A stretch of DNA of 38,881 nt from a virus: positions 1-38,881 of the IMG/VR virus record IMGVR_UViG_3300044529_000040. The stretch is one strand, 5' to 3'. How positions within the stretch are numbered: position 1 is the first letter of the stretch; the number at the start of each line of letters is the position of its first letter. The translations under genes were made by a program, and so were the position numbers. Shown piece after piece: positions 8,213 to 31,497 of this stretch. The notes beneath the pieces were generated by a model. The model searched no databases, was not told the origin of the DNA, and was given only the letters and a program-made list of their open reading frames with translations.

Positions 8213-8590
8213 ATGAGGCGAACACTGACTCTTGTGGGCCTTTGCTTGGCGCTGCTGTCGCGGCCCGCGCTGGCGGCCCAGCAACCCTTGGCCTCCCAAG
8301 CCGCTGAATCCTGCCACACATGGCAGAACGCGCGCGTGCTGACGGGGGTGTCCGGCTACGTCGGCGCGGCGGCCTGGATCATGCTGTTCGACGCCAATGT
8401 CGCCCCCGCTAATGGAGCGGTAAACCCCATTGCCTGGGCCTATGTCTCCACCGCAGGAAGCTGGTCGATCTGGTACGACGGCAACCCGGCCCAATTCCTC
8501 AACGGCGTTACCGTCTGCGCCAGCTCAACAGGCCCCCTGACCTTCACGGCCTATTCGACCAACACCGTGTTTTCGGCGCAGGTGCAGTGA
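8213..8590 (+). CDS. Secreted/periplasmic protein with Sec signal peptide, 125 aa
   Basis: A classical signal peptide (MRRTLTLVGLCLALLSRPALA, shown here as positions 1-21) is followed by a probable cleavage site before AQQPLASQAA. The mature part (~104 aa) is beta-rich with a pattern of Trp/Ala/Tyr and two cysteines (ESCHTW early, TVCASS late) that could form a disulfide in the periplasm. No family recognised. The motif AAQQPLASQA recurs in a 32-aa ORF at 31513. The gene is upstream of two other signal-peptide ORFs. Virion proteins normally assemble in the cytoplasm, so export is unexpected. Confidence 0.75.
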   Translation: MRRTLTLVGLCLALLSRPALAAQQPLASQAAESCHTWQNARVLTGVSGYVGAAAWIMLFDANVAPANGAVNPIAWAYVSTAGSWSIWYDGNPAQFLNGVTVCASSTGPLTFTAYSTNTVFSAQVQ

Positions 8591-9984
8591 TGCGCAGGCT
8601 TTTCGCCGCCGCCGCGATTTGCGCACTACTGGCGGCGCTCCCCGCCCGTGCTCAGCAGATCATCGTCCCGCCGTCCGGTGGCGGATCGGGCGGCTGCACC
8701 ACCAACTGCACCTTTACGTCGGTCACGACGGGGCAGGCATCGGCGTCAGGGGCCACGACCGGGCCCATAGCCCAAGGCACGCTGTCGTTTTCCGACACCG
8801 GCCTTGCACAGTCCTGGCAGGCGTCCATCGCGGGCTACCTGCAAACGGTTCTGCAGAACACGAGCAACAATGCCGCAGCCTCCGCTGACTATATCGTCAC
8901 GAACGACCAAGGGACGGCGACCACCCACTACGGCGACTTCGGGATCAACTCGTCCACATTCAGCGGCACAGGAAGCCTGGCCCTGGCGGGCGCGACCTAT
9001 CTCTACAGCCAAACCGGCGATCTGGTCATCGGCAGCAACACTGCCAATGCGGTGCACTTCCTGGCCAACAACGCCGCGACCGACGCCATCACGATTTCAA
9101 GCGCAAACGCCGTCACGATCAATGGAACGCCGACGCTCGTGCTGACCAACGCAACCGGACTCGTGGCGTCCACAGGGACCACGGCGACCGGCACGCCGTC
9201 ATCCTCGACCTATCTGCGAGGCGACAATACCTGGGCGACGCCGTCCGGAGGATCGGGCTGCACGGTCGGCGGCACGGCGGGCCAGCTCGTCTACAACAAC
9301 GGCTCAACCGGGTGTTTGTCGTCATCGGCCACTGTCACAAGCGGCGGGCAGGTCACGTTAGGCGCTGGGTCGGCATCGGCTGCACCCCTTAATATCCCGG
9401 CCGGGACCAACCTTACAACGGCGTCCGCAGGCGCCATCGAGTTCGACGGAACGGCATTCTACGCCGACCAAGCCGCCAGTACGCGGGGCGTGATCCCGAC
9501 TCAGCAATGGTGCGTGCTCTCCGCCAACTTCACCCTGACCTCGCAGACGGCCGCTCAGCCGGCGTTCAACTGCACGGCCAACGGGGCGGTGACGCTTCCG
9601 GTGGGGACATATTCTTTTGATATCGTTGCGGCGATGACTGGCCTTTCATCGACCAGTGGGGCCTACGGATTTGCGATAGGTGGAACGGCGACGTTAACTC
9701 AGGGCTGGGCGTCGCTCGCCAACAAGATTACCACCCTGACCACATCGGGTAGCGCGCTTACCGGCGAATATTCTACCGCAGCCAACACCGGCATTATGTC
9801 GGCGAACGCTAACACCAGTGCTGTGTTCATGATTAGGGGCATCCTCCGTGTCACCGTGGCCGGAACCGTGATCCCGGAGGTCTCCCTCGGTGTCGCCTCT
9901 GCAGCCGTCATCCAGGCTAACAGCTATGCGGTCTTCACGCCCATTGGCTCGTCAAGCGTCACGAACGTCGGGAACTGGAACTGA
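8590..9984 (+). CDS. Signal-peptide, tail-fibre-like repetitive protein, 464 aa
   Basis: ATG 8590 overlaps the preceding stop (TGATG). The first ~22 residues are a Sec-type signal (LFAAAAICALLAALPARA). Then comes a Gly-rich linker with GGCTTNCTFTSVTTG, a long Ser/Thr/Ala/Gly-rich beta region (about 60-300) typical of phage fibre shafts (for example STYLRGDNTWATPSG, a fibre-like motif), and a distinct C-terminal domain from QQWCVLSANFTL to the end. A fibre or adhesin is the natural call, but the signal peptide would send it across the inner membrane. It may be a secreted surface protein, or the signal may serve another purpose. Confidence 0.7.
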   Translation: MRRLFAAAAICALLAALPARAQQIIVPPSGGGSGGCTTNCTFTSVTTGQASASGATTGPIAQGTLSFSDTGLAQSWQASIAGYLQTVLQNTSNNAAASADYIVTNDQGTATTHYGDFGINSSTFSGTGSLALAGATYLYSQTGDLVIGSNTANAVHFLANNAATDAITISSANAVTINGTPTLVLTNATGLVASTGTTATGTPSSSTYLRGDNTWATPSGGSGCTVGGTAGQLVYNNGSTGCLSSSATVTSGGQVTLGAGSASAAPLNIPAGTNLTTASAGAIEFDGTAFYADQAASTRGVIPTQQWCVLSANFTLTSQTAAQPAFNCTANGAVTLPVGTYSFDIVAAMTGLSSTSGAYGFAIGGTATLTQGWASLANKITTLTTSGSALTGEYSTAANTGIMSANANTSAVFMIRGILRVTVAGTVIPEVSLGVASAAVIQANSYAVFTPIGSSSVTNVGNWN

Positions 9985-9987
9985 TCA

Positions 9988-10188
9988 ATGTTCTGGAAAG
10001 CATTTATCGGGTGTTTAAGCGCGGCGCTGATCTCCTGCCCGTCACTTGCCCAGACCATCATTCCGGGAGGCGGTAGCAGTTCCGGCGGCTGCACCACCAA
10101 CTGCACGTTCACGTCGGTCACCACCGGAGCCGCTGCGAGTTCATCGGTAATCACGACGTTGCCCATCGCTCAAATCATGCTATCTTAG
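9988..10188 (+). CDS. Truncated paralog of the signal-peptide fibre-like protein, 66 aa
   Basis: A signal peptide (MFWKAFIGCLSAALISCPSL, ending near residue 21) is followed by a Gly/Ser linker and GGCTTNCTFTSVTTG, identical in protein to the same segment of the preceding gene. It then follows the parent loosely (TTLPIAQIMLS against TTGPIAQGTLS) and stops. It is either a shortened duplicate that still works as a small secreted peptide or a remnant. DNA identity across the shared module is high. Confidence 0.6.
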   Translation: MFWKAFIGCLSAALISCPSLAQTIIPGGGSSSGGCTTNCTFTSVTTGAAASSSVITTLPIAQIMLS

Positions 10189-16629: not shown

Positions 16630-17817
16630 ATGAGCACGAACGCCCTTCTCACGCCGTCGCTGATCACCAAGGAAACCTTGGTGATGCTGGAAAACAACCT
16701 TGTCGCCGCAGGCAAGGTCAACCGCCAGTTCGAGAACCAGTTCGTGAAGATCGGCAACGCGATCACGGTGCGCAAGCCCAACCGCTTTACCGTGACCTCT
16801 GGTCCCGGCCTGTCCATCCAGAACATCTCCGAGCCCTCGACCTCGATCACGATCAGCAACCAGAAGCACGTGGACTTCCAGTTCACGTCGCAGGACTTGA
16901 CCCTGACCATCGAGGAGTTCTCCGAGCGCTACGCCAAGCCCGCCGCCGCCGAACTGGCCAACCAGCTCGACTATGACGTCCTGACCAACACCTTCCTGTT
17001 CTCCAACCTCGTGGGCACGCCCGGCACGGTTCCGGCGACCTTCGCCGCCCTGGCCGCCGTCGGCCAGCGCATGGATGAGAACGGCGCCCCGCAGGACGGG
17101 CGCACCCTCATCCTCAACCCGGCGGCCTACTGGTCTCTGGCGGGGGGGCTGATCACGCTCTATGTCAAGTCGGTGGCCGAGCCCGCCCTGAAGGGCTTTT
17201 TGGCCAACATCGCCAACTTCATGATCTTCGAGGACCAGAACGTCCAGCAGTTCACCAACGGCAACTATGCCGGGAGCGGCGTGGTCAACGGCGCGGGCCA
17301 GACCGGCTCTGTACTGGTCACCAACGGCTGGACGGCCTCCAAGACCGGTCTGATGACCCCCGGCACGGTGTTCAACATCGCGGGCGTGTTCAACGTCAAC
17401 CCGAAGAACCGCCAGTCCACCGGCACGCTGAAGAATTTCACCGTGACCTCGTCCTCGTCCTCGGACGGCTCGGGCAACGCGACCCTGAACATCTCCCCCG
17501 CCATCACCACCAGCGGCGCCTATCAGAACGCCTCGGCCAGCCCGGCCAACGGCGCGGCGATCACCGTCATATCGGGAACCGCCAACACCGCCTATTTCAA
17601 CAACATCGCCTTCGTGCGTGACGCCATTGGCCTTGTGACCGTGCCGCTGGAGTTGCCCGAGGGCGTCGATTTCCGGGCGCGCGAAATGTACAAGGGCATC
17701 TCGATGCGCATCATCAGGGCCTACGACATCAACAACGACGTGTTCCCCGCCCGCATCGATATTCTGTACGGCACCAGCCAGTTCTACGACGAACTTGGCG
17801 TGCGCCTGACGAACTAA
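16630..17817 (+). CDS. Major coat protein (P22 gp5-like)
   Basis: 395 aa with AGGA before ATG 16630. The N-terminal part (SLITKETLVMLENNLVAAGK; VRKPNRFTVTSGPG) and the block VDFQFTSQDLTLTIEEFSER (81-100) followed by YAKPAAAELANQ match the P22 coat family, an HK97-fold shell protein with an inserted domain. The middle (about 210-320) is rich in Gly/Thr/Ser and corresponds to the insertion-domain region. Position after scaffold supports it. Confidence 0.9.
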   Translation: MSTNALLTPSLITKETLVMLENNLVAAGKVNRQFENQFVKIGNAITVRKPNRFTVTSGPGLSIQNISEPSTSITISNQKHVDFQFTSQDLTLTIEEFSERYAKPAAAELANQLDYDVLTNTFLFSNLVGTPGTVPATFAALAAVGQRMDENGAPQDGRTLILNPAAYWSLAGGLITLYVKSVAEPALKGFLANIANFMIFEDQNVQQFTNGNYAGSGVVNGAGQTGSVLVTNGWTASKTGLMTPGTVFNIAGVFNVNPKNRQSTGTLKNFTVTSSSSSDGSGNATLNISPAITTSGAYQNASASPANGAAITVISGTANTAYFNNIAFVRDAIGLVTVPLELPEGVDFRAREMYKGISMRIIRAYDINNDVFPARIDILYGTSQFYDELGVRLTN

Positions 17818-18063: not shown

Positions 18064-19515
18064 ATGGGCATCGTTACCGCCGCCGTTAACCCGAATGAAA
18101 GCGCCTATTCCCAGATCGGCGGCAACGATCCGAACGGCACTCAGTTCGGGTCCCTGAACGTCCCGCTGGCCTTCTTTGGCGGCACGCCCGTTGCCCAGCC
18201 CGCAGGCAACAGCCAGGCGGCCCAGGTGCGCGGCGCGGCGGCGGGCATCGTCTCCACCTACAGCACCTTCCAGACCAACGTGCAGAGCGCGGGCGTGGGC
18301 GTCATCACCAGCGCCGAATACGGCATGACGGTGATGCAGGGCACCACCACCAACAGCCGCCTGCTGGTGACCTCCGGCGACATGATCTACATCAACAAGC
18401 CGACCGCTCAGGCCGGGCTTGGCGTGGGCAATGTGCGGGTCTCCGCCTCCAACGTCATCGGCGTGACCCTGACCAACTACACCGCCGCCACCATCACGCC
18501 GACCACCAACCAGACCTATTCCATCGTGGCGATTCGCGGCCTGCCGACCATCTCGGCCACCCTGAGCCCCGCCGCCGTCGCTCCCAACACCACCATCGAA
18601 CAGCAGTTCACCATTGTTCCGACCGCAGCGGCCCCGCAAGGCATCGCGGCGGGCTCCCTGGTGCAGGTGTCCAAGCCGACCTCTCAGGCGGGCCTGGACA
18701 TCGTCGGTTGCCGCGCTGTGTCCAACAACGTGGTCGGCATCACCTTCGCCAACGTGACGGCTGCCACCATCACGCCCACGGCGTCGGAGTCCTATACCAT
18801 CCAGTCGCTGCAAGCCCTGGACGCCCTGAACAACTACCTGACCTTCTCGCTGAACTTCGGCGCCATCGGCGCTATCGGCGCGGGCCTGGTCATCTCGGCG
18901 GGCAACGTCACCTGCGGCGGCGTGCTGGCGTCCGACATCCCCATCGGCCCACCCGCGCAGGTTACCGCCCAGGCCGCCGCGACCAACGCTACGGCCCCGA
19001 TCTTCTCCATCCTCGGCGCGAACACCCTGACCCCCTACTTCCTGTCGGCGGGCACGGGCGCGACCCCCACGGCCAACCTGACCTATGACCAGCTGGTGTT
19101 CCGCCTCAACCCGGCCGCCCCGCTGGTGATCTACACGCCCGCCCTGGCTCCGGTCTCTGTGGCCGCCAACACCACGGCGGAGCAGACCTTCACGGTGACG
19201 GGCCTGATCGCCTCAACTCCGGTGTGGGTCAACAAGCCCTCATGGACGGCGGGCCTGGGTATTGCCGGGGTGCGCGTCTCCGCCGCCAACACCCTGGCGA
19301 TCAACTACGCCAACACGTCCGCCGCCGCCATCGTCCCGCCGTCCGAGACCTATATCATCGGCAACTTCCAACAGGTCGCGGTGGGCGCCACCACGTCCAA
19401 CACGTCCGGCGGCGCGGTCAGCCAACCGGCGGTGACGGCCCTGAACCAAGGCCTCAACCAGCTTTACGCGGTGCGCAACGGGCTTGTCGGGCTTGGCTTG
19501 ATCGCGGGCGCATAG
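18064..19515 (+). CDS. Head decoration/fibre-like protein with three repeats
   Basis: 483 aa. Three beta-rich modules at about residues 80-157, 163-249 and 358-436 share (V/I)xKPTxQAGL, G(V/C)R(V/A)S, NVVGI and TAATITPT-like positions; the third is more diverged. Between the second and third is a ~100-residue different domain. The C-terminal AVTALNQGLNQLYAVRNGLV helix could trimerise. The position directly after coat suggests a shell-decorating or head-fibre protein with Ig-like modules that bind the capsid surface or the host cell. Function inferred from architecture and place. Confidence 0.7.
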   Translation: MGIVTAAVNPNESAYSQIGGNDPNGTQFGSLNVPLAFFGGTPVAQPAGNSQAAQVRGAAAGIVSTYSTFQTNVQSAGVGVITSAEYGMTVMQGTTTNSRLLVTSGDMIYINKPTAQAGLGVGNVRVSASNVIGVTLTNYTAATITPTTNQTYSIVAIRGLPTISATLSPAAVAPNTTIEQQFTIVPTAAAPQGIAAGSLVQVSKPTSQAGLDIVGCRAVSNNVVGITFANVTAATITPTASESYTIQSLQALDALNNYLTFSLNFGAIGAIGAGLVISAGNVTCGGVLASDIPIGPPAQVTAQAAATNATAPIFSILGANTLTPYFLSAGTGATPTANLTYDQLVFRLNPAAPLVIYTPALAPVSVAANTTAEQTFTVTGLIASTPVWVNKPSWTAGLGIAGVRVSAANTLAINYANTSAAAIVPPSETYIIGNFQQVAVGATTSNTSGGAVSQPAVTALNQGLNQLYAVRNGLVGLGLIAGA

Positions 19516-19527
19516 TAGGCTGGGAGC

Positions 19528-20313
19528 ATGGAAAAGCTCCCCGCCGTCGCCTTCGCCACGCCATCGCTCAACCATTCGGTGGCGATGGAGTTCCTGACCT
19601 CCATGCTGCAGACCGATTGGCTGCTGCAGGCAAGAAACTATAACCGGGTCTATCTGAACCATTGCGGCGACCAGTTCATCGCCAAGGCCCGCAACAAGCT
19701 GATGAACGACTTCCTCGTCAACCACCCGGACGTGGACAACCTGTTCTTCATCGATGACGACCTGGGCTGGCCCGCCGCCAAGGTGCTGGAGTTCTGCGAA
19801 CGGGACGAAGACATCCTGTGCGGCGTCTATCCCAAGAAGTCCGAGGAGCCCGACTGGCCGGTTGTTGTGGCGGGCATCGACGGCTCGCTGGAGGAAAAGG
19901 ACGGGCTCATCCGGTGCGTCAGGGGCCCGACCGGCTTCATGCGCATCAAGCGCCGCGTGATCGAGGCCTTGTTGCCCCACGCACCCCCCTTCCTCGATAT
20001 CGACCTGAAGGGCGAGACAATCCAGACGCCAGGCTGGTTTGCCTCCGGCGTGGCCCCTGACGGCTGGTTCTGGACGGAGGATTACATCTTCTGCGAGAAC
20101 GCCACGCGCATGGGCTTTGAAATCTGGATGGACCCCGACATCGACTTCACCCACCGTGGAAACAAGGCGTGGAAGGGCAACGTCACCACGACCCTGCCCA
20201 CCTTCCGCGAGCGGGCCAAACAGTCGCACCTTGAGAAGCTGAGGGCCGAACAGATTGCCACCGACGTGATCGAAGGCCAGTTGATCCAACCCGCGCAGGA
20301 GAGTGCAGCGTGA
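19528..20313 (+). CDS. GT-A-fold glycosyltransferase-like protein
   Basis: 261 aa. An N-terminal nucleotide-sugar-binding-like start (LPAVAFATPSLNHSVAMEFL), the acidic metal motif FFIDDDLGW (D76-D78, DxD-like), and the later FWTEDYIFCENATRMGFEIW with a downstream FTHRG His resemble family-2-type glycosyltransferases. No membrane segment, so it acts in the cytoplasm. Placed between the decoration protein and gp4-like adaptor, it may glycosylate a virion protein; alternatively it may modify host glycans. Acceptor unknown. Confidence 0.8.
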   Translation: MEKLPAVAFATPSLNHSVAMEFLTSMLQTDWLLQARNYNRVYLNHCGDQFIAKARNKLMNDFLVNHPDVDNLFFIDDDLGWPAAKVLEFCERDEDILCGVYPKKSEEPDWPVVVAGIDGSLEEKDGLIRCVRGPTGFMRIKRRVIEALLPHAPPFLDIDLKGETIQTPGWFASGVAPDGWFWTEDYIFCENATRMGFEIWMDPDIDFTHRGNKAWKGNVTTTLPTFRERAKQSHLEKLRAEQIATDVIEGQLIQPAQESAA

Positions 20314-20747
20314 GCGAGTTCCAGAAGTATCCGCTTATGATGGCCCATCCGGGCTTCCGGCCCGCCAAGGTCAGCACCACGCCCTACGAAAGCACCCCGC
20401 AGGTGTTCCCGCCCGTCACTGTCAACAACGAGGACGAGGAAGAATACCACGCCGCCCAGGGCTATGTTCCTGCTGGCAAGGGCGATCCGTCCGCCTATGC
20501 GATGGCCCACGCCTCTCCGCCGCCGGACAACTACGAGCCGCAGGAATATCCCAAATGGGTGAATGGCGTCCTGTTCAACACCAAGCAGGACGAGGACGCC
20601 CACGAGTGGCCGTCGCAGGCCGCACCGGAGCCCGCCCATGAGCCTGTGGACTATGAGGCCCAGATTGCAGCCCTGACGGCGCAACTGGCCGCTGCGCAGG
20701 CCCCCAAGAACCGTGGCGGGCGCCCGCGCAAGCAACCGGCGGCCTAA
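20310..20747 (+). CDS. Hypothetical virion-region protein with AT-hook-like tail, 145 aa
   Basis: GTG start overlaps the preceding stop. Mostly disordered, Pro/Glu/Tyr-rich, with a short helical stretch (YEAQIAALTAQLAAAQ) and a C-terminus NRGGRPRKQPAA, in which GGRPRK is like an AT-hook that binds DNA minor groove. Such tails recur in head proteins of related phages. Could be a minor head or DNA-binding protein. Confidence 0.68.
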   Translation: MSEFQKYPLMMAHPGFRPAKVSTTPYESTPQVFPPVTVNNEDEEEYHAAQGYVPAGKGDPSAYAMAHASPPPDNYEPQEYPKWVNGVLFNTKQDEDAHEWPSQAAPEPAHEPVDYEAQIAALTAQLAAAQAPKNRGGRPRKQPAA

Positions 20748-21497
20748 ATGACCACAGCGTCGGATATCATCACCGACGCCTACACCATGCTCGGGGTGTA
20801 TGGCACGGGGTCGGCCATAGCCTCGGCGGACATGCAGCTGGGCCTGTCGTGCCTGAACGACATGCTGGACTCATGGTCCAACGAAAGCCTGACCACCTTC
20901 GCCACCCTTGAGCAGTCCGCCGTCCTCGTGCCGGGTCAGCAGTCCTACACCATCGGGACCGGCGGGCAGTTCAACATGACCCGCCCGATCCGTATCCTGG
21001 AGGGGCCGGGCACCGCCTATGTGCAGGACTTCAACGGCAACAACTATGACATGGAGGTCGTGCCCAGGGACAAGTGGAACCTTTATTCCAACAGGTCGGC
21101 CCTGATCACGTCGGACTTCCCGACCATCCTGTTCTACGACAACCAGTTCCCGCTTGGGATCATCAACATCGCCCCGTTCCCCACCATCGCCTACACGATG
21201 TTCTGGGACAGCTACCTGCAACTGGTGGATTTCGCCAACATCAACACGGCAATCAGCCTGCCGCCCGGCTATACGCTGGCGCTCAAGACCAATCTGGCTG
21301 TGGCGCTTCAGCCCTACTTCGACAGCGCGCAACTCAGTCAGGTGATCATCACTCGCGCCCTGGAAAGCAAGGGCAACATCAAGCGGTCCAATATCAGGCC
21401 GACCGAGGCGCTGTATGACAACGAGATCGTGTCGCGCGCGAACGTGAGTTATTCGCCTTATACGGACTCGGTAGGTAGCTCGGTCGGGTCTAGGTAA
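20748..21497 (+). CDS. Head-to-tail adaptor (P22 gp4-like)
   Basis: 249 aa (P22 gp4 is 166). The N-terminal helical part (ASDIITDAYTMLGVYGTGSA; LGLSCLNDMLDSWSNESLTT) matches the gp4/tail-accessory-factor family, which binds the portal ring after packaging and closes the head. The middle and end are beta-rich extension. Synteny with gp10-like 22051-23478 supports it; the HNH gene at 21545 interrupts the pair. Confidence 0.85.
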   Translation: MTTASDIITDAYTMLGVYGTGSAIASADMQLGLSCLNDMLDSWSNESLTTFATLEQSAVLVPGQQSYTIGTGGQFNMTRPIRILEGPGTAYVQDFNGNNYDMEVVPRDKWNLYSNRSALITSDFPTILFYDNQFPLGIINIAPFPTIAYTMFWDSYLQLVDFANINTAISLPPGYTLALKTNLAVALQPYFDSAQLSQVIITRALESKGNIKRSNIRPTEALYDNEIVSRANVSYSPYTDSVGSSVGSR

Positions 21498-21521
21498 ATG
21501 ACGTTGTAGCATGTAGTATGT

Positions 21522-21540
21522 AGCCCTCAACAGGAGGGCT
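21522..21540 (+). promoter_or_regulatory. Hairpin that sequesters the HNH gene ribosome-binding site
   Basis: AGCCCTC (21522-21528) pairs perfectly with GAGGGCT (21534-21540) across a 5-nt loop. The AGGAGGG Shine-Dalgarno of the GTG at 21545 is in the loop and 3' arm, so translation should be low unless the hairpin is melted. A comparable device, hairpin occlusion of the RBS, is known for T4 homing endonuclease I-TevI. Confidence 0.65.
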
Positions 21541-21544
21541 GGTC

Positions 21545-22054
21545 GTGGATAAACGAGTCATCGACTTAACGGGTAAAAGGTTTGGGGCGTGGACGGTGCT
21601 GCAAATTAGCGAACTGGTCGGAAAGCATCGGAACTGGACCTGTCGCTGTGACTGCGGAACGGTGCGCGAGGTTCGCGGACAGCCCCTGCGGAATGGAGCA
21701 TCACGTTCCTGCGGCTGCATTACCGCAAAGCTGACGTCCGACAAGAAGACCAAACACGAAAAGGCGCAGCCCAGCCGCTATTGGTCGCCCGAATACCGCG
21801 CCTTTCGCTCGATGCACCGGCGCACTCGCGCAAGCAACACGCAACACCGACCCCTTTATTTCGACAGGGGCATCACCGTTTGCGAGCGATGGTTCAGCTA
21901 CGAGTACTTCATCATCGACATGGGCTTGATCCCGCGCCCCGGACACACCCTGGACAGGATCGACAACGATAAGGGCTATTCCCCCGATAATTGCCGGTGG
22001 GCCGACAAGAAGACCCAGGCCGTCAACCGACGACGCACTGTCGGCTCGCGATGA
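21545..22054 (+). CDS. Free-standing HNH homing endonuclease
   Basis: 169 aa, GTG start. An N-terminal zinc-ribbon-like cluster (TCRCDCG and SCGC, Cys 33/35/37/56/58) is followed by a basic linker and an HNH core: H134 in [20 protein letters not shown], with N141 and N149. The latter sequence is typical of phage/intron HNH nucleases. Lying between two otherwise adjacent tail genes and with its own hairpin-masked RBS, it looks like an inserted homing element. The end overlaps the next gene's ATG. Confidence 0.85.
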
Positions 22055-23478
22055 ACTACCCCAAGACGCCATTTCTGGGAGTCGCCTACGTCGCACGGTC
22101 CAAGACCCTTGCGGACCAGCAGTGCATCAACCTGTTCCCCGAGATCGTCGAGAGCAAGTCCGGCGCTGCGGTAGGGGCGTTCTATGGGTGTCCGGGGCTA
22201 CTGCTCCAACTGACCGTGGACGGCGGGCCGATCCGGGGCATGCTGGTCGCCATGGGCTACCTGTACGTGGTCTCCGGCGCCGGCCTCTATCAGGTCGATC
22301 AGTATTACAACAAGACCCTGCTGGGCACGCTGGCGACCTCCACCGGCTTCGTCAGCATGGTGGCGAACCAAACACAGGTTGCGGTGTTCGACAGCGTGGG
22401 CGGCTATTCCTGGGCCAGCGGCTCGTTCGCGACCATATCCCTGCCGTTCTCCAATCCTGGCCTGGCGGCCTATATGGACGGCCTGGCGGTCTGCACGCAG
22501 GCGGGGACCTTCAATCTGTGGCAATCCAACGTCAACGACCTGACGACGTGGGGAAGCCTGAATTTCACCACCGAGGACGGTTCGGCGGATAATGTCGTTT
22601 CGATCATCGAGTTTCACAACCAGTTGGTGGTTTTCAAACAGGGATTCACCTGCTTTTACATCAACGCGGGCCTCAACGGCTTTGTGTTTCAGAGGCTGAG
22701 CGGCGTCTATGCCGAGACCGGCTGCGCGGCTCCCAACAGCGTGGCGAAGGTGGACGAGGCGGTCCTCTGGCTCGGGCAAAACGCCCAGGGCGGCAAGGCC
22801 GTCTATATGATGAAGGGCTACGAGCCGCAGCGGGTTTCGACCCACGCGATTGAGTACGCCATAGCCCAATATTCCACCGTCTCGGACGCGGTTGCCTTCT
22901 GTTATTCCCAGGAGGGCCACAAGTTCTATGTGCTGACCTTCCCGACCGGCAACGCGACGTGGGTTCTGGACCTGACCGCGACGCAAAAGATGGGCATCGC
23001 GGCGTGGCATCAAAGGGCCGCGTTCTCGAATGGCGCGTTCAGCCAGTACCAAGCCCAGACACAGGCCTATTTCAATGGACTGGTGCTGGTCGGAGATTAT
23101 CAGAACGGCAACATCTACTCGCTCAATCTGGACACCTACACCGACAACGGCGCTCCCCGCAAATGGGTGCGAAGCTGGCGGGCGGTGCAGGAGGCCAAGT
23201 ACGAGCCGACCAAGTTCAACTTCCTCGAAGTGTTTTGCGAGACCGGCAACGGTGAAACACCGACCGCCAATCCTCAACTGGTCCTTCGCTACAGCGACGA
23301 CTCCTTCTCGTGGTCGCCTGAACTTTTCCAGCCCTTGGGCGCCCAGGGCAACACCGGCAACCAAATCCGGTGGAACCGCCTTGGCATGACGCGGCGGGGC
23401 CTGTCCTCGGACCGGATATTCGAGCTGTCCAGCACCGACCCCTTCAAGGTAGCCCTGCTCGCGGCTGACATCGGATGA
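22051..23478 (+). CDS. Tail hub/DNA stabilisation protein (P22 gp10-like)
   Basis: ATG 22051 (ATGA with the HNH stop) gives 475 aa, very near P22 gp10 (472). A beta-propeller-like series of strands with repeated short G-x-x-W/Y motifs and the family opening [20 protein letters not shown] followed by NLFPEI are seen. gp10 forms the hexameric hub of the short tail beneath gp4 and keeps packaged DNA inside. The upstream extension of the frame to 21991 overlaps the HNH gene and is unlikely. Confidence 0.87.
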
Positions 23479-24161
23479 CCGTTCAGCAATCCACCGGCGT
23501 TCCCAACCAGAACAGCCCTTTCGTGGCGGGACCTAACAATTCCATCACTCAGGTCTGGTACTTCTTTCTCCAGCTTCTTTATCAACGCACTGGCGGCATC
23601 TCGGGCAACACCTTCGTGCAAACCGGCGTGGTGGTGGAATATGCCGGGGCCACCATCCCGGATGGATACCTCGCTTGTGATGGCTCGGCGGTGTCTCGGA
23701 CAACCTTCTCCGCCCTGTTCCAGGCCATCGGCACGACATGGGGCGACGGCGACGGAACCACCACCTTCAACGTCCCTGACCGCAGGAACAACTTCGGCAT
23801 TGGGGCGAGCGCCACCTATCCGCTGGGCTCAACGGGTGGGGCTTCAACCGTAGCGCTGGCGATCGGCAACCTTCCGGCCCACAACCACCCGGTCATCGAC
23901 CCGCATCACAACCACGCCCTGACGGACCCTAATCACGACCACGCCGAACAATACACACCGACGCCGGGGGGGGCTGTCACCGGCATGGCCAGCCTGCCGG
24001 GGACAGGTTCGGGGGTGTCTAACGTGCGAACGCAGAGTTCATCCACCGGCATTACGCTCGCCTCCGCTGCCACTGGCATCACCATCGGCAACACCGGATC
24101 AGGAACCGCCTTCTCCATCATCCCGCCCTATGCGGCCATGAATTACATGATCAAGACATGA
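23475..24161 (+). CDS. Tail collar-domain fibre protein
   Basis: 228 aa. Residues ~50-110 form a phage tail collar domain (ATIPDGYLACDGSAVSRTTF; DGTTTFNVPDRR). A His-rich section follows (LPAHNHPVIDPHHNHALTDP and NHDHAE), where HxH pairs may bind iron at a fibre tip as in T4 gp37. The C-terminus ends IIPPYAAMNYMIKT, the usual collar-fibre end. It probably trimerises and serves as a short tail fibre or needle-like part, taking the gp26 position of P22 order. Confidence 0.85.
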   Translation: MTVQQSTGVPNQNSPFVAGPNNSITQVWYFFLQLLYQRTGGISGNTFVQTGVVVEYAGATIPDGYLACDGSAVSRTTFSALFQAIGTTWGDGDGTTTFNVPDRRNNFGIGASATYPLGSTGGASTVALAIGNLPAHNHPVIDPHHNHALTDPNHDHAEQYTPTPGGAVTGMASLPGTGSGVSNVRTQSSSTGITLASAATGITIGNTGSGTAFSIIPPYAAMNYMIKT

Positions 24162-24706
24162 GCAACCCGTTCTGGATAACCGGCCTTCCGAGGTCTCGCA
24201 CGGCGTGGTTCGCTGTCGCCATGCGGGGGCCCAGGTCTAGCTGCGCTCACGAACTGACCGCCACCTGCCAATCGCTCGTCGAGCTGAAAAGCCGATGGCT
24301 CTACGGCTCGGCGGCGGAGTACCGGGGCAATTCGGATTCCGCGTGCGGCCTGAACATCGAACGCATCATGGCTGACATCAGGCCCCGCACCCTGATCATC
24401 CGCAGGCCCATCGGCGAGGTCATGGATAGCCTGTCGAGGTTCATGGGTTATGACCTGAAGCCCATAGCCGGACAGATGGAGCGGCTGGACGACGCTCTGG
24501 ACTTCAAGCACGCGCTGATCAAGGCCGTGGCCTATAAAGACCTGACCGACCGCGAATGCCTGTCCAACGCGGTTGAGTGGCTGGTTCCTTGTCAGGTTAA
24601 CAACGCCCTGTCGCTGATGACGTTTAACATCCAGGCCGAACGGGACTATGCTCTAGCTTTGATGCGCGCGCCGCATTCCCACTGGCATATGCAGGAGGCC
24701 GTGTAA
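24158..24706 (+). CDS. Sulfotransferase-like protein
   Basis: 182 aa. ITGLPRSRTAWFA (residues 7-19) has the form of the PAPS 5'-phosphosulfate loop, and RTLIIRRPIGEVMDSLSRF (about 77-95) resembles the 3'-phosphate-binding motif (R...S). If active it would transfer sulfate from PAPS to a hydroxyl or amine. Alternatively it is a degenerate P-loop protein, since it is shorter than typical sulfotransferases. Context: among tail genes and near a glycosyltransferase. Overlaps both neighbours. Confidence 0.65.
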   Translation: MSNPFWITGLPRSRTAWFAVAMRGPRSSCAHELTATCQSLVELKSRWLYGSAAEYRGNSDSACGLNIERIMADIRPRTLIIRRPIGEVMDSLSRFMGYDLKPIAGQMERLDDALDFKHALIKAVAYKDLTDRECLSNAVEWLVPCQVNNALSLMTFNIQAERDYALALMRAPHSHWHMQEAV

Positions 24707-25728
24707 TGCCGTTTTTTGGTGGCGCCCTCATCGCTGGTATCGGCTCTCTATTCAGCGGCGGCGCGGCGACTGGCGGCCTCGTGGCGGGCCTTGGTAGCGT
24801 AGCGGGGTCTCTCATTGGCGGAGATGCGGCTACAAGCGCGGCTCAGACCCAAGCCAACGCCGCCAATCAGGCTGCGCAAATCCAGCAGAACGAGTTCAAC
24901 TCGGTCCAGCAGCTCGAGCAGCCCTATGTCCAGTCCGGCAATAGCGCGCTGTCCCTGCTGAATTATGGCCTGGGGACCGGCCCCGCGCCCAATGGCGGCG
25001 GCGCGGCGCCCGACTTCGCGGCCTATGTGCAGAACAACCCTGACCTGCTCGCGGGGTTTCAGAAAGACCAGGCCGACAATAATCCTAACTCGTGGGGCAA
25101 CACCGAGGCCGCGTGGGGCCAGAAGCAGTGGGATTTGTACGGCCAGAATGAAAACCGGGGCTTCACGCCCACGACAGGCCAGGCCGCGCCATCCTCCACG
25201 GCGGCTGGCGGCATCACATCCGGGTCGCTTATCGCCCCCTTCAACCCCGCCAACCTCAGCCAGACGCCCGGCTATCAATTTCAGCTCCAACAGGGCGAAC
25301 AGGCCGTCACCGACCAGGCGACGGCGACAGGCGGGGTGGGCGGCGGCAACACCCTGAAGGCTCTGATGAACTATGGGCAGGAGCTGGCCTCCACCACCTA
25401 CCAGCAGCAGTTTAACGACTACTTGGCCCAGCAGCAGCAGCAGTTGGGCGCCCTACAGACGGCGGCGGGCTCCGGGCAGAACGCGGCGGCGGGCCTCGCT
25501 TCGGCCGGACAGACCAGCGCCAACAACGTCGGCAATCTGCTGACCAGCGGCGCGGCGGCTACGGCGGGCGGTCAGGTTGGCGCTGCCAACGCCATCACGG
25601 GCGGCATTAACAACCTGTCCAGCAACTACCTGCTCAGCCAGCTTTTGAACAATGGCGGGGGCTCTGCGGCGGGTGGCGCAAGCGGCCTGGCCCTGGATAG
25701 TTCCCTGGCCTCTCTGTTCGGAAGTTAG
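24706..25728 (+). CDS. DNA ejection protein, P22 gp7-like
   Basis: 340 aa. The N-terminal ~45 residues are hydrophobic and glycine-rich (FFGGALIAGIGSLFSGGAAT), as in gp7-type proteins that insert in the membrane. The characteristic block LSQTPGYQFQLQQGEQAV and GGGNTLKALMNYGQELASTT (about 185-235) is shared with phage DNA transfer proteins. C-terminal half is Gln/Ala/Gly-rich. Expected inside the head and ejected with DNA to build a channel. Confidence 0.85.
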   Translation: MPFFGGALIAGIGSLFSGGAATGGLVAGLGSVAGSLIGGDAATSAAQTQANAANQAAQIQQNEFNSVQQLEQPYVQSGNSALSLLNYGLGTGPAPNGGGAAPDFAAYVQNNPDLLAGFQKDQADNNPNSWGNTEAAWGQKQWDLYGQNENRGFTPTTGQAAPSSTAAGGITSGSLIAPFNPANLSQTPGYQFQLQQGEQAVTDQATATGGVGGGNTLKALMNYGQELASTTYQQQFNDYLAQQQQQLGALQTAAGSGQNAAAGLASAGQTSANNVGNLLTSGAAATAGGQVGAANAITGGINNLSSNYLLSQLLNNGGGSAAGGASGLALDSSLASLFGS

Positions 25729-25731
25729 CGC

Positions 25732-27180
25732 ATGGCCCTTGATCCAGAAATCAGCCTTAAGGTCCAGCAGCCCAACTCGCTCCTGTCGATGTATGGAGAC
25801 GCCTTGGGCGTGGTCAAGCAGCAGCAGGAAGTCCAGGCCCAACGGCAACAGTTGCAGTCACAGAACACGCTTCGGCAAATCCTGAGCGACGCCAACAACA
25901 TCGACCCTGAGACCGGCGCCCCTAACGCGAATGGCATCAAGGCGGTGATGGCTGTCGATCCGTCCGCCGGCATGAAGGTCGCCGAAAGCGCAGCGACCAT
26001 CGAGAACCAGCGATCCGAGGCCAAGTCCCGCACCAGCGCGGAGAACATCAAGGTTCTGGACGCGGTGGACGAGGATGTCATTTCCCCGGCCCTGGAAACC
26101 TATGACGACAACCTCGCCAAGCTCGGCCCGGACGCGGCCAGGGCGACGGCGCAGGAAACCTATGCCACCGCCCGTCAATCGCTGATCAGCAGCGGGGTTG
26201 TGCCTAAGACATTGCAGGACCAACTGCCGACCGAGTTTGACCCGGTCAAGCACGCGGCCCAGTCCAAGACCTATCGGGCGTGGAAGGAAAAGCAGAAGGC
26301 GGACAAGCTCGCTCAGGACAAGGAGCAAGACGCCAAGGACAAGTTCGAGCGCCAGGAGAAGGATCGGCTATCCCAGGAAGACCGGCAGTTCAAGGTCGAG
26401 ATGGCCCGCATTGGTGAGGAAGAACACCGCGCCGACGAAGGCAAGTGGCAGGTTCTGCACGACCCCAAGACGAACACCGATTATCGGTACAACACCGCGA
26501 CAGGCCAATCCACCACGCTGGATATGAAGCCATATTCGCCGCAGGGGGCGTCCAAGATCGGCGGGGGGTCCGCCCGATCCGCCGCTGCGCTGGCGGCCCA
26601 AAAGTACGTTGAGGACAATCCGAACGCCACACCGGATGACATCGCCAGCTTTGCAGCGAAATTCAAGGAACGCGGGGCTGCGGCCACGGCCTTCGGCACG
26701 GGTAAGCAGGGGCAGCAGGTCGCCTCGTTCAATGTGTCCATCGCCCACCTGCACACGCTGGGGCTGCTGGCCGACGCATTGCACAACGGCGATCTGGTGG
26801 CCGCCAACAAGCTCGCCAAAACCGTGCAGCAGGAAACCGGCAGCGCCGCGCCTTCCAATTTCGAGGCCGCCAAGGGCATCGTGGGCGACGAAATCGTTAA
26901 GGCTGTGGTGGGGTCCGGCGGAGCCCTCGGCGACCGCCAGAAGGCCCAGGACTCGATCAACAAAGCCAGTTCCCCCAAACAATTGGCGGGTGTGATCAAG
27001 ACCTATAAGGACTTGATGGCGGGGCAGGTTCGGGGGCTCAAAAAGGAATATGAGAACTCTACGGGCCTAACCGACTTTGACGACAAGTTGTCGGACGCGA
27101 CCAAGGCTGAACTTGGCGTTAGCGGTGGAGGCCAGCCCAAGAGGCGCGTCTACGACGCCAACGGGAACCTTGTGCAATGA
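25732..27180 (+). CDS. DNA ejection/internal virion protein, P22 gp20 position
   Basis: 482 aa, same size as P22 gp20 (471). N-terminal helical region with a Gln-rich coiled coil (VVKQQQEVQAQRQQLQSQNT), a long charged coiled coil at about 180-230, and a helical C-terminal half (VSIAHLHTLGLLADALHNGD). The assignment to gp20 comes from order (gp7-gp20-gp16) and composition; sequence identity cannot be claimed. Confidence 0.75.
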   Translation: MALDPEISLKVQQPNSLLSMYGDALGVVKQQQEVQAQRQQLQSQNTLRQILSDANNIDPETGAPNANGIKAVMAVDPSAGMKVAESAATIENQRSEAKSRTSAENIKVLDAVDEDVISPALETYDDNLAKLGPDAARATAQETYATARQSLISSGVVPKTLQDQLPTEFDPVKHAAQSKTYRAWKEKQKADKLAQDKEQDAKDKFERQEKDRLSQEDRQFKVEMARIGEEEHRADEGKWQVLHDPKTNTDYRYNTATGQSTTLDMKPYSPQGASKIGGGSARSAAALAAQKYVEDNPNATPDDIASFAAKFKERGAAATAFGTGKQGQQVASFNVSIAHLHTLGLLADALHNGDLVAANKLAKTVQQETGSAAPSNFEAAKGIVGDEIVKAVVGSGGALGDRQKAQDSINKASSPKQLAGVIKTYKDLMAGQVRGLKKEYENSTGLTDFDDKLSDATKAELGVSGGGQPKRRVYDANGNLVQ

Positions 27181-29276
27181 CCATCGTCGCTCAGTCATCC
27201 GATGGCGTCGAGCACGAGTTTCCCGATGAAACCAAGCCCGAGGTTATCGACAAGGTCATGAAGGCCTATGCGCGTGAGCACACGGCCAAGCCTACGCCAT
27301 TGCAGACGGCGAGGAACGGGCAGGATTGGGACAAGGCCCCACTGTCATCCAATCCAATCAAGGCCGCTGTCTCTGGCGAGAACCAGGCCATTGAGAGGCT
27401 GGGGCTGGATTGGCAGACATGGTTTGGGGGCGCTAAGGCGGGCGGCAAGCAGTCCATGGACGACGCGCACACGGCGGCGGACGCGGGAGACCGGCTATTC
27501 AGCCTCGCCCCCGGCAGCGACATCGCGGAGCTAATCCAGCACCCCATCGGCGAAGCGACCGCAAGCGCCATCAAGGGTCCAGCCAGGGCCATCACACCGG
27601 CGGTCAACGCCGTCGGCAAGCCGCGCACGCCTGACGAAACGGCGAGAGACCTCGCCAGCACGGCGGGACTCGGAGCGTCTATGGCGGCACTCTCTAAATC
27701 ACCCGTCGCGGAGGTGCGCAGCGCCAAGGTTGGCGATAAAACCGTCGCGTCAGCCTTGAGCGCCTTGTCCAAGGTTGGGCGAACCGCCGCCAATAAGGCT
27801 AAGGCTGTAGCGGGCGACAGGGACGCCGCGATCCACGAGGCCCATCAGGCCGTGCTTGATCGGATTGATAAGGGTGCTGCAGCCGGTGGGGCAACAGCGC
27901 AAGACATTCTGGACTTGGCCAAGGTCAACCCCGGAAAACCCTTCACGATCATGGACGCCAACAGCCAGCCCGTGAAGGCCCTGGCTGGCCGTACATACCG
28001 GCAAGGGGGCGAGGCGGGCCAGCGCATCAAGAACACGCTCCTTGACCGCACCAAGGGCCAGGGCGCGCGCATGGAGGCCGACATCAAGGGCGCAATCGCC
28101 CGCAAGGCCCAACAAGAAGCCGTGGCAGCCCTGCAGCGGTCGCGCGCCGCTGCCGCTTCTCCTCTATACGAAGCGGCGTTTGAGGCCAATCCGGCGGTTC
28201 GCACGCCTGGCATTGACGCGGTGATAAAGACCCCCGCCGGGAGCATGGCTGTTCGCAGGGCCGTCACCAAGATGAAAAACGACATGTCGGGCTTTGTGGT
28301 GCGCGGCGGTCCACCGCCTGACGTAGAGCCCGGAGCCTCGCTCATTGTTCCAGGCGCCCCAGAATCTCGCCTTGGCGACCCGGCGACGCAAACGTCCTTT
28401 AATCTGCGCACGCTCGATTACACCAAGCGGGCGCTGGACGACATGATCAGCGTTTCACACCGCGCCGGTAAGGCGGACGACGTGCGCATCCTCGTCGGCT
28501 TGAAAAACAAGCTGGTCGAGGAATTGGACGCGGCTGACAAGAGCGGGAAATATGCGCAGGCGCGGGCGGCGTATTCCGGCCCTACCCATAGCCTTGAGGC
28601 GGTGGAGTTCGGCAAGCGCGCCCTGGCGCCAAGTTCATCGCCGGAGGAAATAGCCGGGGCCATTAGAAAGATGACGATTGGAGACAGGGAGTTTGCCAAG
28701 ATCGGCCTGGCGGACGCGCTGAGGGCCAAAATCGGCAACAAGCGCATCACGCAGAACGCCGCAATGGAATTGGCCAACACTCCGACGCTGCAGGCCAAGC
28801 TGCGCCCCTTTTTCAAGACCCAGGGCGACTACGAGAAGTTCATCAGTTCGGTTGCGGCTGAAGATACGATGTTCAACACTCAATACGAGGTTATCGGAAA
28901 TTCCAAAACCGCCGAACGTGAGGCCGAGGACGGTGGGGCCCTTCGCACGGCGGCAAGCGTGGCCAAAGGCGCGATGCATGGCGCGGCGGGCAACCACCTG
29001 GGAATGCTCCGTCATGCCGGACAGGCCCTAGGCGATATTGCCGCGCGCCCCAATCCGACGACATCGGCGGAAATCTCGCGGATCATGACCGGAAACGTCA
29101 ACGACACGGCCAGCATCGCAAGGAAGCTGTTGGAGGCCCACGCGGCCCGCACAAACAGGAGCCCCACCAACTATCTTGCTCATGCCACCAGGGCCGTCAA
29201 TCCGCTCGTGCAGCATCGGGGCCCTAGCGCTGCAGCCGTACTGCCGGCCGCACCAATTCAGCAACCACCCCAATGA
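27177..29276 (+). CDS. DNA ejection/internal virion protein, P22 gp16 position
   Basis: 699 aa (P22 gp16 is 609). It opens with a short beta/helix unit (DGVEHEFPDETKPEVIDKVM) typical of phage internal proteins, followed by a largely helical Ala/Lys-rich body and no clear enzymatic motif. Both ends overlap neighbours by 4 bp. Likely the large ejection protein that crosses the cell envelope with DNA. Confidence 0.72.
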   Translation: MTIVAQSSDGVEHEFPDETKPEVIDKVMKAYAREHTAKPTPLQTARNGQDWDKAPLSSNPIKAAVSGENQAIERLGLDWQTWFGGAKAGGKQSMDDAHTAADAGDRLFSLAPGSDIAELIQHPIGEATASAIKGPARAITPAVNAVGKPRTPDETARDLASTAGLGASMAALSKSPVAEVRSAKVGDKTVASALSALSKVGRTAANKAKAVAGDRDAAIHEAHQAVLDRIDKGAAAGGATAQDILDLAKVNPGKPFTIMDANSQPVKALAGRTYRQGGEAGQRIKNTLLDRTKGQGARMEADIKGAIARKAQQEAVAALQRSRAAAASPLYEAAFEANPAVRTPGIDAVIKTPAGSMAVRRAVTKMKNDMSGFVVRGGPPPDVEPGASLIVPGAPESRLGDPATQTSFNLRTLDYTKRALDDMISVSHRAGKADDVRILVGLKNKLVEELDAADKSGKYAQARAAYSGPTHSLEAVEFGKRALAPSSSPEEIAGAIRKMTIGDREFAKIGLADALRAKIGNKRITQNAAMELANTPTLQAKLRPFFKTQGDYEKFISSVAAEDTMFNTQYEVIGNSKTAEREAEDGGALRTAASVAKGAMHGAAGNHLGMLRHAGQALGDIAARPNPTTSAEISRIMTGNVNDTASIARKLLEAHAARTNRSPTNYLAHATRAVNPLVQHRGPSAAAVLPAAPIQQPPQ

Positions 29277-30592
29277 GGGTTCTCGTCATCGATGTAGAAT
29301 TGATGGGCCTGGACTTCTGCATCCGCGCCGCTGAGGACGGCCACGATGTCCGTTGGTGCCGTGTCACCAAGCATCCGATGGGCCGGGGCTTTCATGGCGT
29401 GAAGGTCATTGACGACTGGCGGGCCTCGATGGCGTGGGCGGGCAAGGATGGGCTGATCGTCACGACGGGGAATGCTAAATTTCTCCCCGAGCTTGACCGC
29501 TTCAGGGACCTGGGTTTTCGCATCTTCAGCCCGACGGTCGCCTCAGCCGCCCTAGAGATAGACCGCGCCAAGGGCATGGAGGCGATGAAGGCGGTGGGGA
29601 TCAATCTGCCCCACTATGAGCAGTTCCCGACGCTTGAGGCTGCGGAAGCCTTCGCCCGCAAATCCGACAAGGCCTATGTGTTCAAGCCGCTGGGCTCCGA
29701 GGACGACAAGAGCTCCACCTATGTCAGTTCGTCCCCCGCCGACATGGTTGGCTGGATTCAGCGCAAGAAGGCCCAGGGCATGACCCTCAAGGGGCCGTGC
29801 ATGCTGCAAGAGAAGATCGACATGGTGTCGGAGCTTGGCGTTTCGGGCTGGTTCGGCCCCGAAGGCTTCCTGCCCGGCAAATGGCAGATGTGCTTTGAGC
29901 ACAAGAAGCTGATGAACGACGAGAAGGGCCCCAACACCGGAGAGATGGGCACGGTCTGCAAATACAGCGAGACCGACCGGCTAGCCGAGGAAATGTTGCT
30001 GCCGATGGAGCCCATCCTGAAGACCCTCGGTCACCGGGGAGACTTCGCCATCGGCTGCGGGATCGACAGCAAGGGCAAGGCATGGCCGTTTGAGTTCACC
30101 TGTCGCTTGGGCTGGCCCGCGTTCTTTATCCAGATGGCGTCGCACAAGGGCGATGTCTGCCAATGGATGCGCGACCTTCTGGACGGGAAGGACACCCTCA
30201 AGGTCGATTACAGACCGGCCATCGGCGTTGTCATGGCCCAGCCGCCCTTCCCGCAATGGAACGGCAAGCCGGATTGCGTGGACGGCAACCCCATATCCGG
30301 CATGGAGGACGTTTGGGATCAGGTCCATCCCTGCATGATGCAGATCGGCAAGGGCCCCTACATGGACGACGACAAGGTCAAGGAAGGCCCGATTTACCAG
30401 ACGGCGGGCGAGCAGATTTGCGTGGTGACCGGCCTGGGCTCCACTGTGGCGAAGGCGCGCAAATCGGTTTATGGCGCGGTGGATCAGGTCGGCTTTTCGG
30501 ACGCGATTTACCGCACCGATATTGGCTTGAAATTAGAGCGGGAATTGCCCAAGCTACACAGTCTCGGGTGGGCGCTGGGGATTGACTTCTAA
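29273..30592 (+). CDS. PurD-like ATP-grasp ligase
   Basis: 439 aa, the length of bacterial PurD (GAR synthetase). N-terminal nucleotide-fold start (MRVLVIDVELMGLDFCIRAA); ATP-grasp lysine region AYVFKPLGSEDDKS (K138); acidic LQEKIDMVSELGVSGWF; a PurD-like GPNTGEMG (219-226); EFTCRLGWP (274-282), equivalent to the EFNxRFGDPE metal site but with the usual Asp replaced by Trp. That change and several missing PurD residues suggest a different substrate. It sits between ejection and tail-fibre genes, not with nucleotide genes. An amine- or amino-acid-linking role is inferred from family only. Confidence 0.78.
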   Translation: MRVLVIDVELMGLDFCIRAAEDGHDVRWCRVTKHPMGRGFHGVKVIDDWRASMAWAGKDGLIVTTGNAKFLPELDRFRDLGFRIFSPTVASAALEIDRAKGMEAMKAVGINLPHYEQFPTLEAAEAFARKSDKAYVFKPLGSEDDKSSTYVSSSPADMVGWIQRKKAQGMTLKGPCMLQEKIDMVSELGVSGWFGPEGFLPGKWQMCFEHKKLMNDEKGPNTGEMGTVCKYSETDRLAEEMLLPMEPILKTLGHRGDFAIGCGIDSKGKAWPFEFTCRLGWPAFFIQMASHKGDVCQWMRDLLDGKDTLKVDYRPAIGVVMAQPPFPQWNGKPDCVDGNPISGMEDVWDQVHPCMMQIGKGPYMDDDKVKEGPIYQTAGEQICVVTGLGSTVAKARKSVYGAVDQVGFSDAIYRTDIGLKLERELPKLHSLGWALGIDF

Positions 30593-31497
30593 TGGTCGCC
30601 GTCAACCTGTCTCCCGACATCATCCAGCAATTCACCGACAACAGCGGCGCCCTGCTGAACGGCGGAAAACTGTTTGTCTATAACGCCGGAACCACCACCA
30701 AGGCCACGACCTACACCGATTCCACGGGATCGGTCGCGCAAACCAACCCCATCGTGCTTAACGCCAGAGGCGAGCCGCAGAACACCCTGGGCGCCTCGGT
30801 CGGCATCTGGCTCCCCCCCGGACAGTCCTACAAGTTCGTTCTGGCCCCGGCGAGCGATACGGACCCGCCGACCAATCCGTTCTGGACAGAAGACAACGTG
30901 CCCGGCGCCATCACGCCTACGCAGCAGATTTTTACGTCCGGTTCGGGCACATACACGAAGCCCGCTGGCGTCCTTTGGATTCGCGTTCGCTTGATCGGCG
31001 GCGGCGGCGGCGGAAGCGGCGCCGGAACGTCCCCGGGCACGGGCGGTACTGGCGGCAATACGACTTTCGGCACGTCTCTGCTGACCGGCTCCGGCGGCAG
31101 TCCTCCCGCCGGCGGCGCGGCCAGCGGCGGCAACGTCAACTTGACCGGCGGCGCTGGCGGCTATCCTGTCCCTGGGCTCACAAATGCACCGGGGGGAAGT
31201 GGGGGAAATGGCCCGTTTGGCGGTGCGGGCCAAGGTGTTTTCTCGGGTAATGCCGGCGAAGCGGCGGCCACCAACACCGGAAGCGGCGGCGGCGGCGGCG
31301 GGACAAGCACGGGAACCTCGCCGGGCGTCGGCGGCGGCGCAGGCGGTTATGTTGAAGCCATCATTAATTCGCCGTCGGCCACCTATTCCTATGCCGTAGG
31401 GGCCGGCGGAACGGCCGGAACGGCGGGCACTGGAGGGGCGGCCGGGGGCGCTGGCGGCTCGGGCCTGATCATCGTGGAAGAACATTATGGATATTAG
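30592..31497 (+). CDS. Tail fibre/adhesin with glycine-rich tip domain
   Basis: 301 aa. Residues 1-~110 read like a phage tailspike head-binding domain (LLNGGKLFVYNAGTTTKATT; ARGEPQNTLG). From ~115 the QIFTSGSGTYTKPAGVLWIR opening leads to a very Gly-rich domain (more than 40% Gly locally) ending LIIVEEHYGY. Such glycine-rich domains form polyglycine-II-like receptor-binding tips, as in T2/S16 gp38 adhesins. Likely the host-recognition protein; it follows the ejection genes and precedes lysis. Confidence 0.78.
   Translation: MVAVNLSPDIIQQFTDNSGALLNGGKLFVYNAGTTTKATTYTDSTGSVAQTNPIVLNARGEPQNTLGASVGIWLPPGQSYKFVLAPASDTDPPTNPFWTEDNVPGAITPTQQIFTSGSGTYTKPAGVLWIRVRLIGGGGGGSGAGTSPGTGGTGGNTTFGTSLLTGSGGSPPAGGAASGGNVNLTGGAGGYPVPGLTNAPGGSGGNGPFGGAGQGVFSGNAGEAAATNTGSGGGGGGTSTGTSPGVGGGAGGYVEAIINSPSATYSYAVGAGGTAGTAGTGGAAGGAGGSGLIIVEEHYGY

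Follow-up and report, generated by a model that had tools for sequence, protein, structure and literature searches.

The protein of phage particles is usually taken to be unmodified. Among the described systems closest to the locus considered here, the archaeal virus STIV encodes A197 (PDB 2c0n), a minimal viral protein of GT-A fold that is essential for the virus and possibly glycosylates its coat (review PMC10551542). For the mycobacteriophages Che8 and Rita, which encode glycosyltransferases of their own, glycans on the major capsid protein were reported, according to the account of Freeman 2023 given in PMC11256854, and in Maravista, a relative, the glycosyltransferase genes are described as lying near the 3' end of the genome. 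In phiKMV-like phages, the gene encoding the GNAT protein Rac overlaps the first structural gene and so touches the virion operon, and its product acts on the host RNA polymerase (PMC7552054). Of the two other enzymes discussed below, one has its closest solved fold in the protein-tyrosine sulfotransferases TPST1/2, and the other matches, by profile, PurD (GAR synthetase), which combines an ATP-grasp with a GARS C domain.

The stretch of DNA analysed here (the window, a virus record of 38,881 bases) is a contig of a podovirus with a P22-type coat, the coat protein showing 40% identity over 99% to P22 coat proteins and 40% identity to the coats of Vibrio phage VvAW1 and Xanthomonas phage PBR31. 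According to the original prediction, three modifying enzymes, namely a glycosyltransferase (GT), a sulfotransferase (ST) and a PurD-like ATP-grasp ligase, are embedded among the virion genes of this phage, each next to a decoration, fibre or ejection gene. All three open reading frames were confirmed (Table 1), as was their tight placement. GT starts 12 nt past the end of the decoration-like gene, the ST and collar fibre genes overlap by 4 nt (ATGA) and ST abuts ejA, while the ATP-grasp gene shares its first 4 nt (ATGA) with the end of ejC, and the following fibre gene begins at the ATP-grasp stop codon.

Table 1. Features of the late operon of the window, with the evidence for each assignment.
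Feature	Coordinates	Strand	Evidence
P22-type coat protein	16630..17817	+	tblastn to P22 coat proteins
Putative multi-domain head decoration protein, directly 3' of coat; candidate glycosylation target	18064..19515	+	Several related beta-rich repeats in sequence; long form occurs with GT
GT-A fold glycosyltransferase (GT), D-D-D metal motif, 261 aa	19528..20313	+	phrog_1574 1e-22; AlphaFold model; A197 structural match
Small protein co-conserved downstream of GT	20310..20747	+	Same place in relatives
P22 gp4-like tail accessory factor	20748..21497	+	Same profile matches annotated P22 tail accessory factor of MW202691
P22 gp10-like DNA stabilization protein	22051..23478	+	Same profile matches annotated stabilization protein of MW202691
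Collar-domain tail fibre	23475..24161	+	Pfam Collar 1e-19
PAPS-sulfotransferase-fold protein (ST), 182 aa	24158..24706	+	5'-PSB loop, R-x7-S, fold, Sulfotransfer_3 in relatives
Ejection protein A (ejA)	24706..25728	+	phrog_598 DNA ejection 3e-24
Putative ejection protein B (ejB)	25732..27180	+	Position; conserved order
Putative ejection protein C (ejC)	27177..29276	+	phrog_5880 5e-51; position
PurD-like ATP-grasp ligase, phage-carried paralogous clade (EFTxRxGWP motif), 439 aa	29273..30592	+	Pfam GARS_A/GARS_C; PDB PurD profile match 2e-37; motif tests
Second tail-fibre-like gene	30592..31497	+	phrog_863 5e-9

Between the gp4- and gp10-like genes (21545-22054) lies an HNH-endonuclease-like ORF, recognised by eye (no Pfam match), which is found only in some relatives (L013, L017, L065) and is probably a mobile insertion. 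Elsewhere in the window, proteins with apparent signal peptides are encoded before the terminase (8213-10188), two of them sharing SGGCTTNCTFTSVTTG after the signal, and a pentapeptide-repeat-like protein (ADLSG repeats) is encoded on the minus strand (2032-2883).

GT gave, besides its best PHROG match, weaker matches to PHROGs glycosyltransferases, and its alignment profile a weak sequence match to A197 (0.0015). When an AlphaFold model of GT (pLDDT 88) was compared with solved structures, A197 was the best match (Z 18.6, 2.4 A over 165 residues; 21% identity), establishing the GT-A fold, followed by the glycosyltransferase domain of the lysyl hydroxylase LH3 (Z about 17); polysaccharide glycosyltransferases appear lower in the list. 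Foldseek also listed a PBCV-1 glycosyltransferase described as involved in major capsid glycosylation. The DxD metal motif reads DDD in 10 of the 11 family members and DAD in the other. Unlike A197, the window GT is not an archaeal virus protein; its phage belongs to a different host group than the mycobacteriophages whose glycosylation is recounted in the source cited above, and, unlike those of Maravista as described, the gene abuts a decoration gene.

Within the close GT clade, all loci covered from coat to gp4 combine GT with a long decoration protein (358-492 aa, with several repeats), whereas loci lacking GT mostly have no decoration ORF or a short one (124-140 aa). Exceptions were seen on both sides: one locus (L053) encodes a decoration protein of 469 aa without GT, and MW202691 and L033 carry a divergent GT without this decoration protein. 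The pairing supports, without proving, the decoration protein as the GT target. Within the virion-modification reading, it is glycosylation of this protein or of the coat that has the best support. The GT of MW202691 (L005:27027-28304) has a long C-terminal extension, and a weak methyltransferase-like Pfam match (0.0034) was seen in one GT family member, probably this one.

For the window ST itself, a Pfam search returned no match; Sulfotransfer_3 was matched by 13 of the 38 family members (best 1.1e-7). A PRSxTxW-type 5'-phosphosulfate-binding loop (5'-PSB) is present in all 38 and the 3'-phosphate-binding R-x7-S in 36 (R83/S91 in the window), while a Walker A motif is absent from every member. 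The 5'-PSB loop and R-x7-S are the PAPS-binding elements of the sulfotransferase superfamily. The ST model (pLDDT 93) best matched protein-tyrosine sulfotransferases: the only two Foldseek matches under 1e-3 were TPSTs (best 1.5e-4), and comparison with TPST (VIA) gave Z 12.2 and an rmsd of 3.4 A over 161 residues, with carbohydrate sulfotransferases lower in the list. The sulfotransferase fold thus ranked ahead of the P-loop kinases, by the small gap to the best kinase at Z 11.0; with kinases so close behind, the fold alone would not decide the identity of ST, and it is the motifs that do. Although ST shares both PAPS-binding elements with TPST1/2, it comprises 182 aa and has an invariant His (H31) some 19 residues after the loop; the pointer to a protein tyrosine as its acceptor is the resemblance of fold only.

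One distant ST subfamily is encoded in the DNA-metabolism region of a Pseudomonas siphophage, indicating that the family is not tied to virions. The 5'-PSB (PRS) loop and R-x7-S are intact in Pseudomonas phage Ab18 gp36 (L295:3495-4046) and in L296:3495-4037, which belong to the ST family. ST relatives in Pseudomonas and Stenotrophomonas phages, located away from ejection genes, are annotated as hydrolase or nucleotide triphosphate hydrolase; for the Pseudomonas phages, the 'hydrolase' label is likely a mis-annotation.

The ATP-grasp protein matched Pfam GARS_A and GARS_C above cut-off, and its family profile matched PurD structures in the PDB at 2e-37. Residues K138, Q179, E209, K211, E274 and R278 are invariant in all 55 phage members, as are T222-G223-E224 and T276, marking an ATP-grasp domain. 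The hallmarks of PurD itself are missing. The protein scored 81 bits against TIGR00877, whose cut-off is 288, and neither R-[LF]-G-D-P-E-x-[EQT], which we take to be the PROSITE PS00184 signature of PurD, nor the N-terminal G-x-G-G-R-E-H loop occurs in any of the 55. In place of the GGREH loop and RFGDPE signature, 46 of the 55 members carry EFTxRxGWP. Relatives at 27-30% identity were found in archaea, Patescibacteria, Bacteroidota and other bacteria (L226-L289), most of these cellular proteins containing E-[FW]-T-x-R-x-G-[WYF]-P. Of 11 genomes with a relative, cellular or prophage, 9 also encode a PurD above cut-off. Since PurD features are missing and a separate PurD is usually present, this clade is a PurD paralogue also carried by phages. 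None of the 55 phage members matched a PHROG, such that a widespread phage family is missing from that collection, and similarity-based annotation would probably misname the protein phosphoribosylamine-glycine ligase. The neighbours of the cellular relatives offered no functional clue.

Searches of viral contigs by two-sequence alignment revealed 148 ATP-grasp and 47 ST relatives, where single-protein scans of the same contigs had revealed neither. ATP-grasp is thus present in some 150 viral contigs, mostly without GT and ST. Of 80 loci in which ATP-grasp has a gene upstream, 74 show it behind a large gene at the place of ejC, occasionally separated from it by a small gene; the large genes comprise five protein families and would, by their order, be ejection proteins. 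The same arrangement is seen in Paraburkholderia and Rhodanobacteraceae prophages and in a contig from an alphaproteobacterial MAG, where the ATP-grasp protein is 72% identical to that of the window and GT and ST are also present. In the prophages of Paraburkholderia sp. C35 and P. rhynchosiae, ATP-grasp is accompanied by hydroxylase and GNAT genes. Many relatives encode a small protein with an LHELVEAYL motif between ejC and ATP-grasp (L010:6451-6954 and equivalent positions); it was not found in the window and gave no Pfam or PHROG match. One ATP-grasp gene (L008:14595-16763) contains an in-frame, LAGLIDADG-containing insertion that starts CFTPDSEVLT, with a Cys first, and whose end directly precedes the invariant TGE loop; it is a candidate intein. 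Inteins usually choose active sites.

Among near relatives, the ATP-grasp protein remains 97-99% identical while ejB drops to 23-52% and ejC often aligns only in part. Such replacement of ejB/ejC was observed among window positions 24706-29276, L044, L054, L057, L060 and L064, with flanking genes mostly more than 90% identical. The ejection genes hence behave as an exchangeable cassette between ST/ejA and ATP-grasp, an exchange possibly linked to host adaptation. Because ejB and ejC are swapped while ATP-grasp is retained, adjacency to ejC is no sign that ejC is the substrate, and either protein is unlikely to be a specific substrate of the ligase. The ejC C-terminus was considered as a shared ATP-grasp substrate and set aside, given the swapping of ejB/ejC and the lack of a common motif, by eye, among the upstream C-termini.

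At the other end of this cassette, most loci have directly before ejA a gene for ST, for a GNAT acetyltransferase, for an Asp/Asn beta-hydroxylase (PF05118 matched above cut-off) or for a cupin-like protein. The three enzyme families are unrelated to one another, and two of them at times stand side by side. In 87 loci with gp10 and ejA, the slot holds ST (21), ST and hydroxylase (8), ST and GNAT (2), GNAT (11), hydroxylase and GNAT (4), hydroxylase (2), the cupin-like protein (18) or an unlabelled gene (21), with parsimony on the gp10 tree requiring at least 22 changes of content. By our count, a recognised ST, GNAT or hydroxylase is present in 14 of the 49 loci that were reached through the gp10 anchor only. 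PHROGs calls the cupin-like family short tail fibre, and it is therefore not counted as an enzyme here; accordingly, not every slot gene encodes one. The slot gene of L106 has a SET domain just below the Pfam cut-off; the related P26218 gene gave no Pfam match. The beta-hydroxylase lies between ST and ejA in L021, L023, L028, L055, L058, L063 and L132. As speculation, in the tandem of ST and beta-hydroxylase (eight loci) one enzyme would make the hydroxyl that the other sulfates.

The original prediction looked to co-occurrence of the three genes in relatives, and this was borne out in part. Of 49 virus records that were searched over their whole length, 13 have GT, ST and ATP-grasp, yet each gene is also found without the others; the records were chosen by ST or ATP-grasp matches, and these counts do not describe a random sample. 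All 16 records with GT have ST and 13 have ATP-grasp; of the remainder, L003 and L024 are short fragments stopping at or soon after ST, while L033 reaches past the ejection genes and probably represents a true absence. ST and ATP-grasp occur without GT in L053, L058, L103 and others, and ATP-grasp is alone in 16 of the 49. A clear ST match was seen in 33 records, 11 of which have neither of its partners. Loci that combine ATP-grasp with a slot gene of the GNAT, cupin-like or hydroxylase type, and that lack ST and GT, are common. The gp10-like protein has about 590 relatives in viral contigs, and in a search anchored on it, covering the best 80, GT and ATP-grasp were almost confined to the window's lineage within that wider group. 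The trio is therefore a true trait of the lineage, yet its members are not bound to occur together. Changes in ST and ATP-grasp on the gp10 tree showed no correlation, in a comparison of low power with too few independent pairs. The order deco-GT-gp4-gp10-fibre-ST-ejA-ejB-ejC-ATP-grasp is kept in independent contigs, and dN/dS among close relatives is 0.03-0.05 for GT, 0.03-0.04 for ATP-grasp and 0.06-0.14 for ST, as compared to about 0.06 for gp10. All three enzyme genes are thus under purifying selection in relatives and, given also the shared order, their grouping is not due to chance.

The chief rival to action on the virion is host-directed action, in which these enzymes would serve late host takeover by modifying host proteins of transcription, translation, the cell wall or the stress response, and would owe their place in the late operon to timing alone. 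Rac provides a precedent, a phiKMV-like GNAT leading to cleavage of the host RNA polymerase alpha subunit (PMC7552054), although its gene overlaps the first structural gene and the GNAT genes seen here are placed before ejA. The insensitivity of the ATP-grasp sequence to replacement of the adjoining ejection genes and the distant ST subfamily in a DNA-metabolism region also point this way. Against such a role stand the fixed place beside virion genes, which is kept despite different ejection proteins and also where no window-type coat is recognisable, and the way GT keeps, with few exceptions, to the long decoration protein; we regard host takeover as rather unlikely, if still the strongest competitor. 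Late modification of a host surface polysaccharide or released receptor, preventing superinfection or the rebinding of progeny, seems distinctly less probable. Polysaccharides, too, are substrates of GT and ST families, and such enzymes do appear lower in the fold comparisons, but no flippase or sugar-synthesis gene was recognised by eye in the window, and the beta-hydroxylase and GNAT partners of the slot are not polysaccharide enzymes.

That the three are morons, passengers carried along without connection and without a part to play in the particle, would fit the absence of each from some relatives; the order shared by divergent contigs, purifying selection comparable to that on gp10 and the overlap or abutment with neighbouring genes make this improbable. 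Least probable of all is that the ATP-grasp protein is an auxiliary metabolic PurD boosting purine synthesis, as its GARS_A/GARS_C domains and PurD profile match might suggest: the low TIGR00877 score, the lack of both PurD motifs in every phage member and the location after the ejection genes speak against it, and the proposal was rejected on the motif tests and the separate PurD of genomes with a relative.

We favour, at about even confidence, the reading that these are separate late modifying enzymes in fixed operon slots, most likely acting on the phage's own virion proteins; the catalytic activities, the substrates and the virion proteins as targets are what we infer. Judging from position and overlaps, the three would be transcribed late, together with the virion genes. 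GT would probably transfer sugar from a host nucleotide-sugar to the multi-domain decoration protein encoded beside it or to the coat. ST would probably use host PAPS to sulfate a hydroxyl on the collar fibre or an ejection protein, and sulfation of such a protein is plausible. The ATP-grasp ligase, for which the assignment is least certain, might use ATP to form an acyl-phosphate and join an amine or amino acid to a carboxylate by an amide or related bond, its target probably being a conserved one other than ejB or ejC. The enzymes would make separate modifications and not serve one sulfated-sugar pathway. Of the virion-modification reading as originally put forward, the parts that stand are the genes themselves, the trio order kept in the window's lineage, the protein- or sugar-modifying folds and the late virion operon. 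A single route to a sulfated or amino-linked sugar is not supported, since each enzyme occurs without the others and ST and ATP-grasp changes are uncorrelated, at low power.

A literature search found no description of an ST or ATP-grasp gene in an ejection operon, nor, in the papers searched, of an enzyme slot before ejA. Virion-directed modification is itself of a known kind, and what sets the present case apart is the ATP-grasp family absent from PHROGs and the pre-ejA enzyme slot; to our knowledge, protein sulfation in a phage particle would also be new. Tentatively, short-tailed phages may practise a modular late post-translational modification of the particle, comprising sulfation, beta-hydroxylation then sulfation, acetylation and ligation by a PurD-derived ATP-grasp enzyme, with the slots fixed and the ejection proteins exchanged. 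The conserved position before ejA, with its sulfotransferases, hydroxylases and acetyltransferases, and the ATP-grasp family offer concrete single-gene tests of the chemical tailoring of injected or surface virion proteins.
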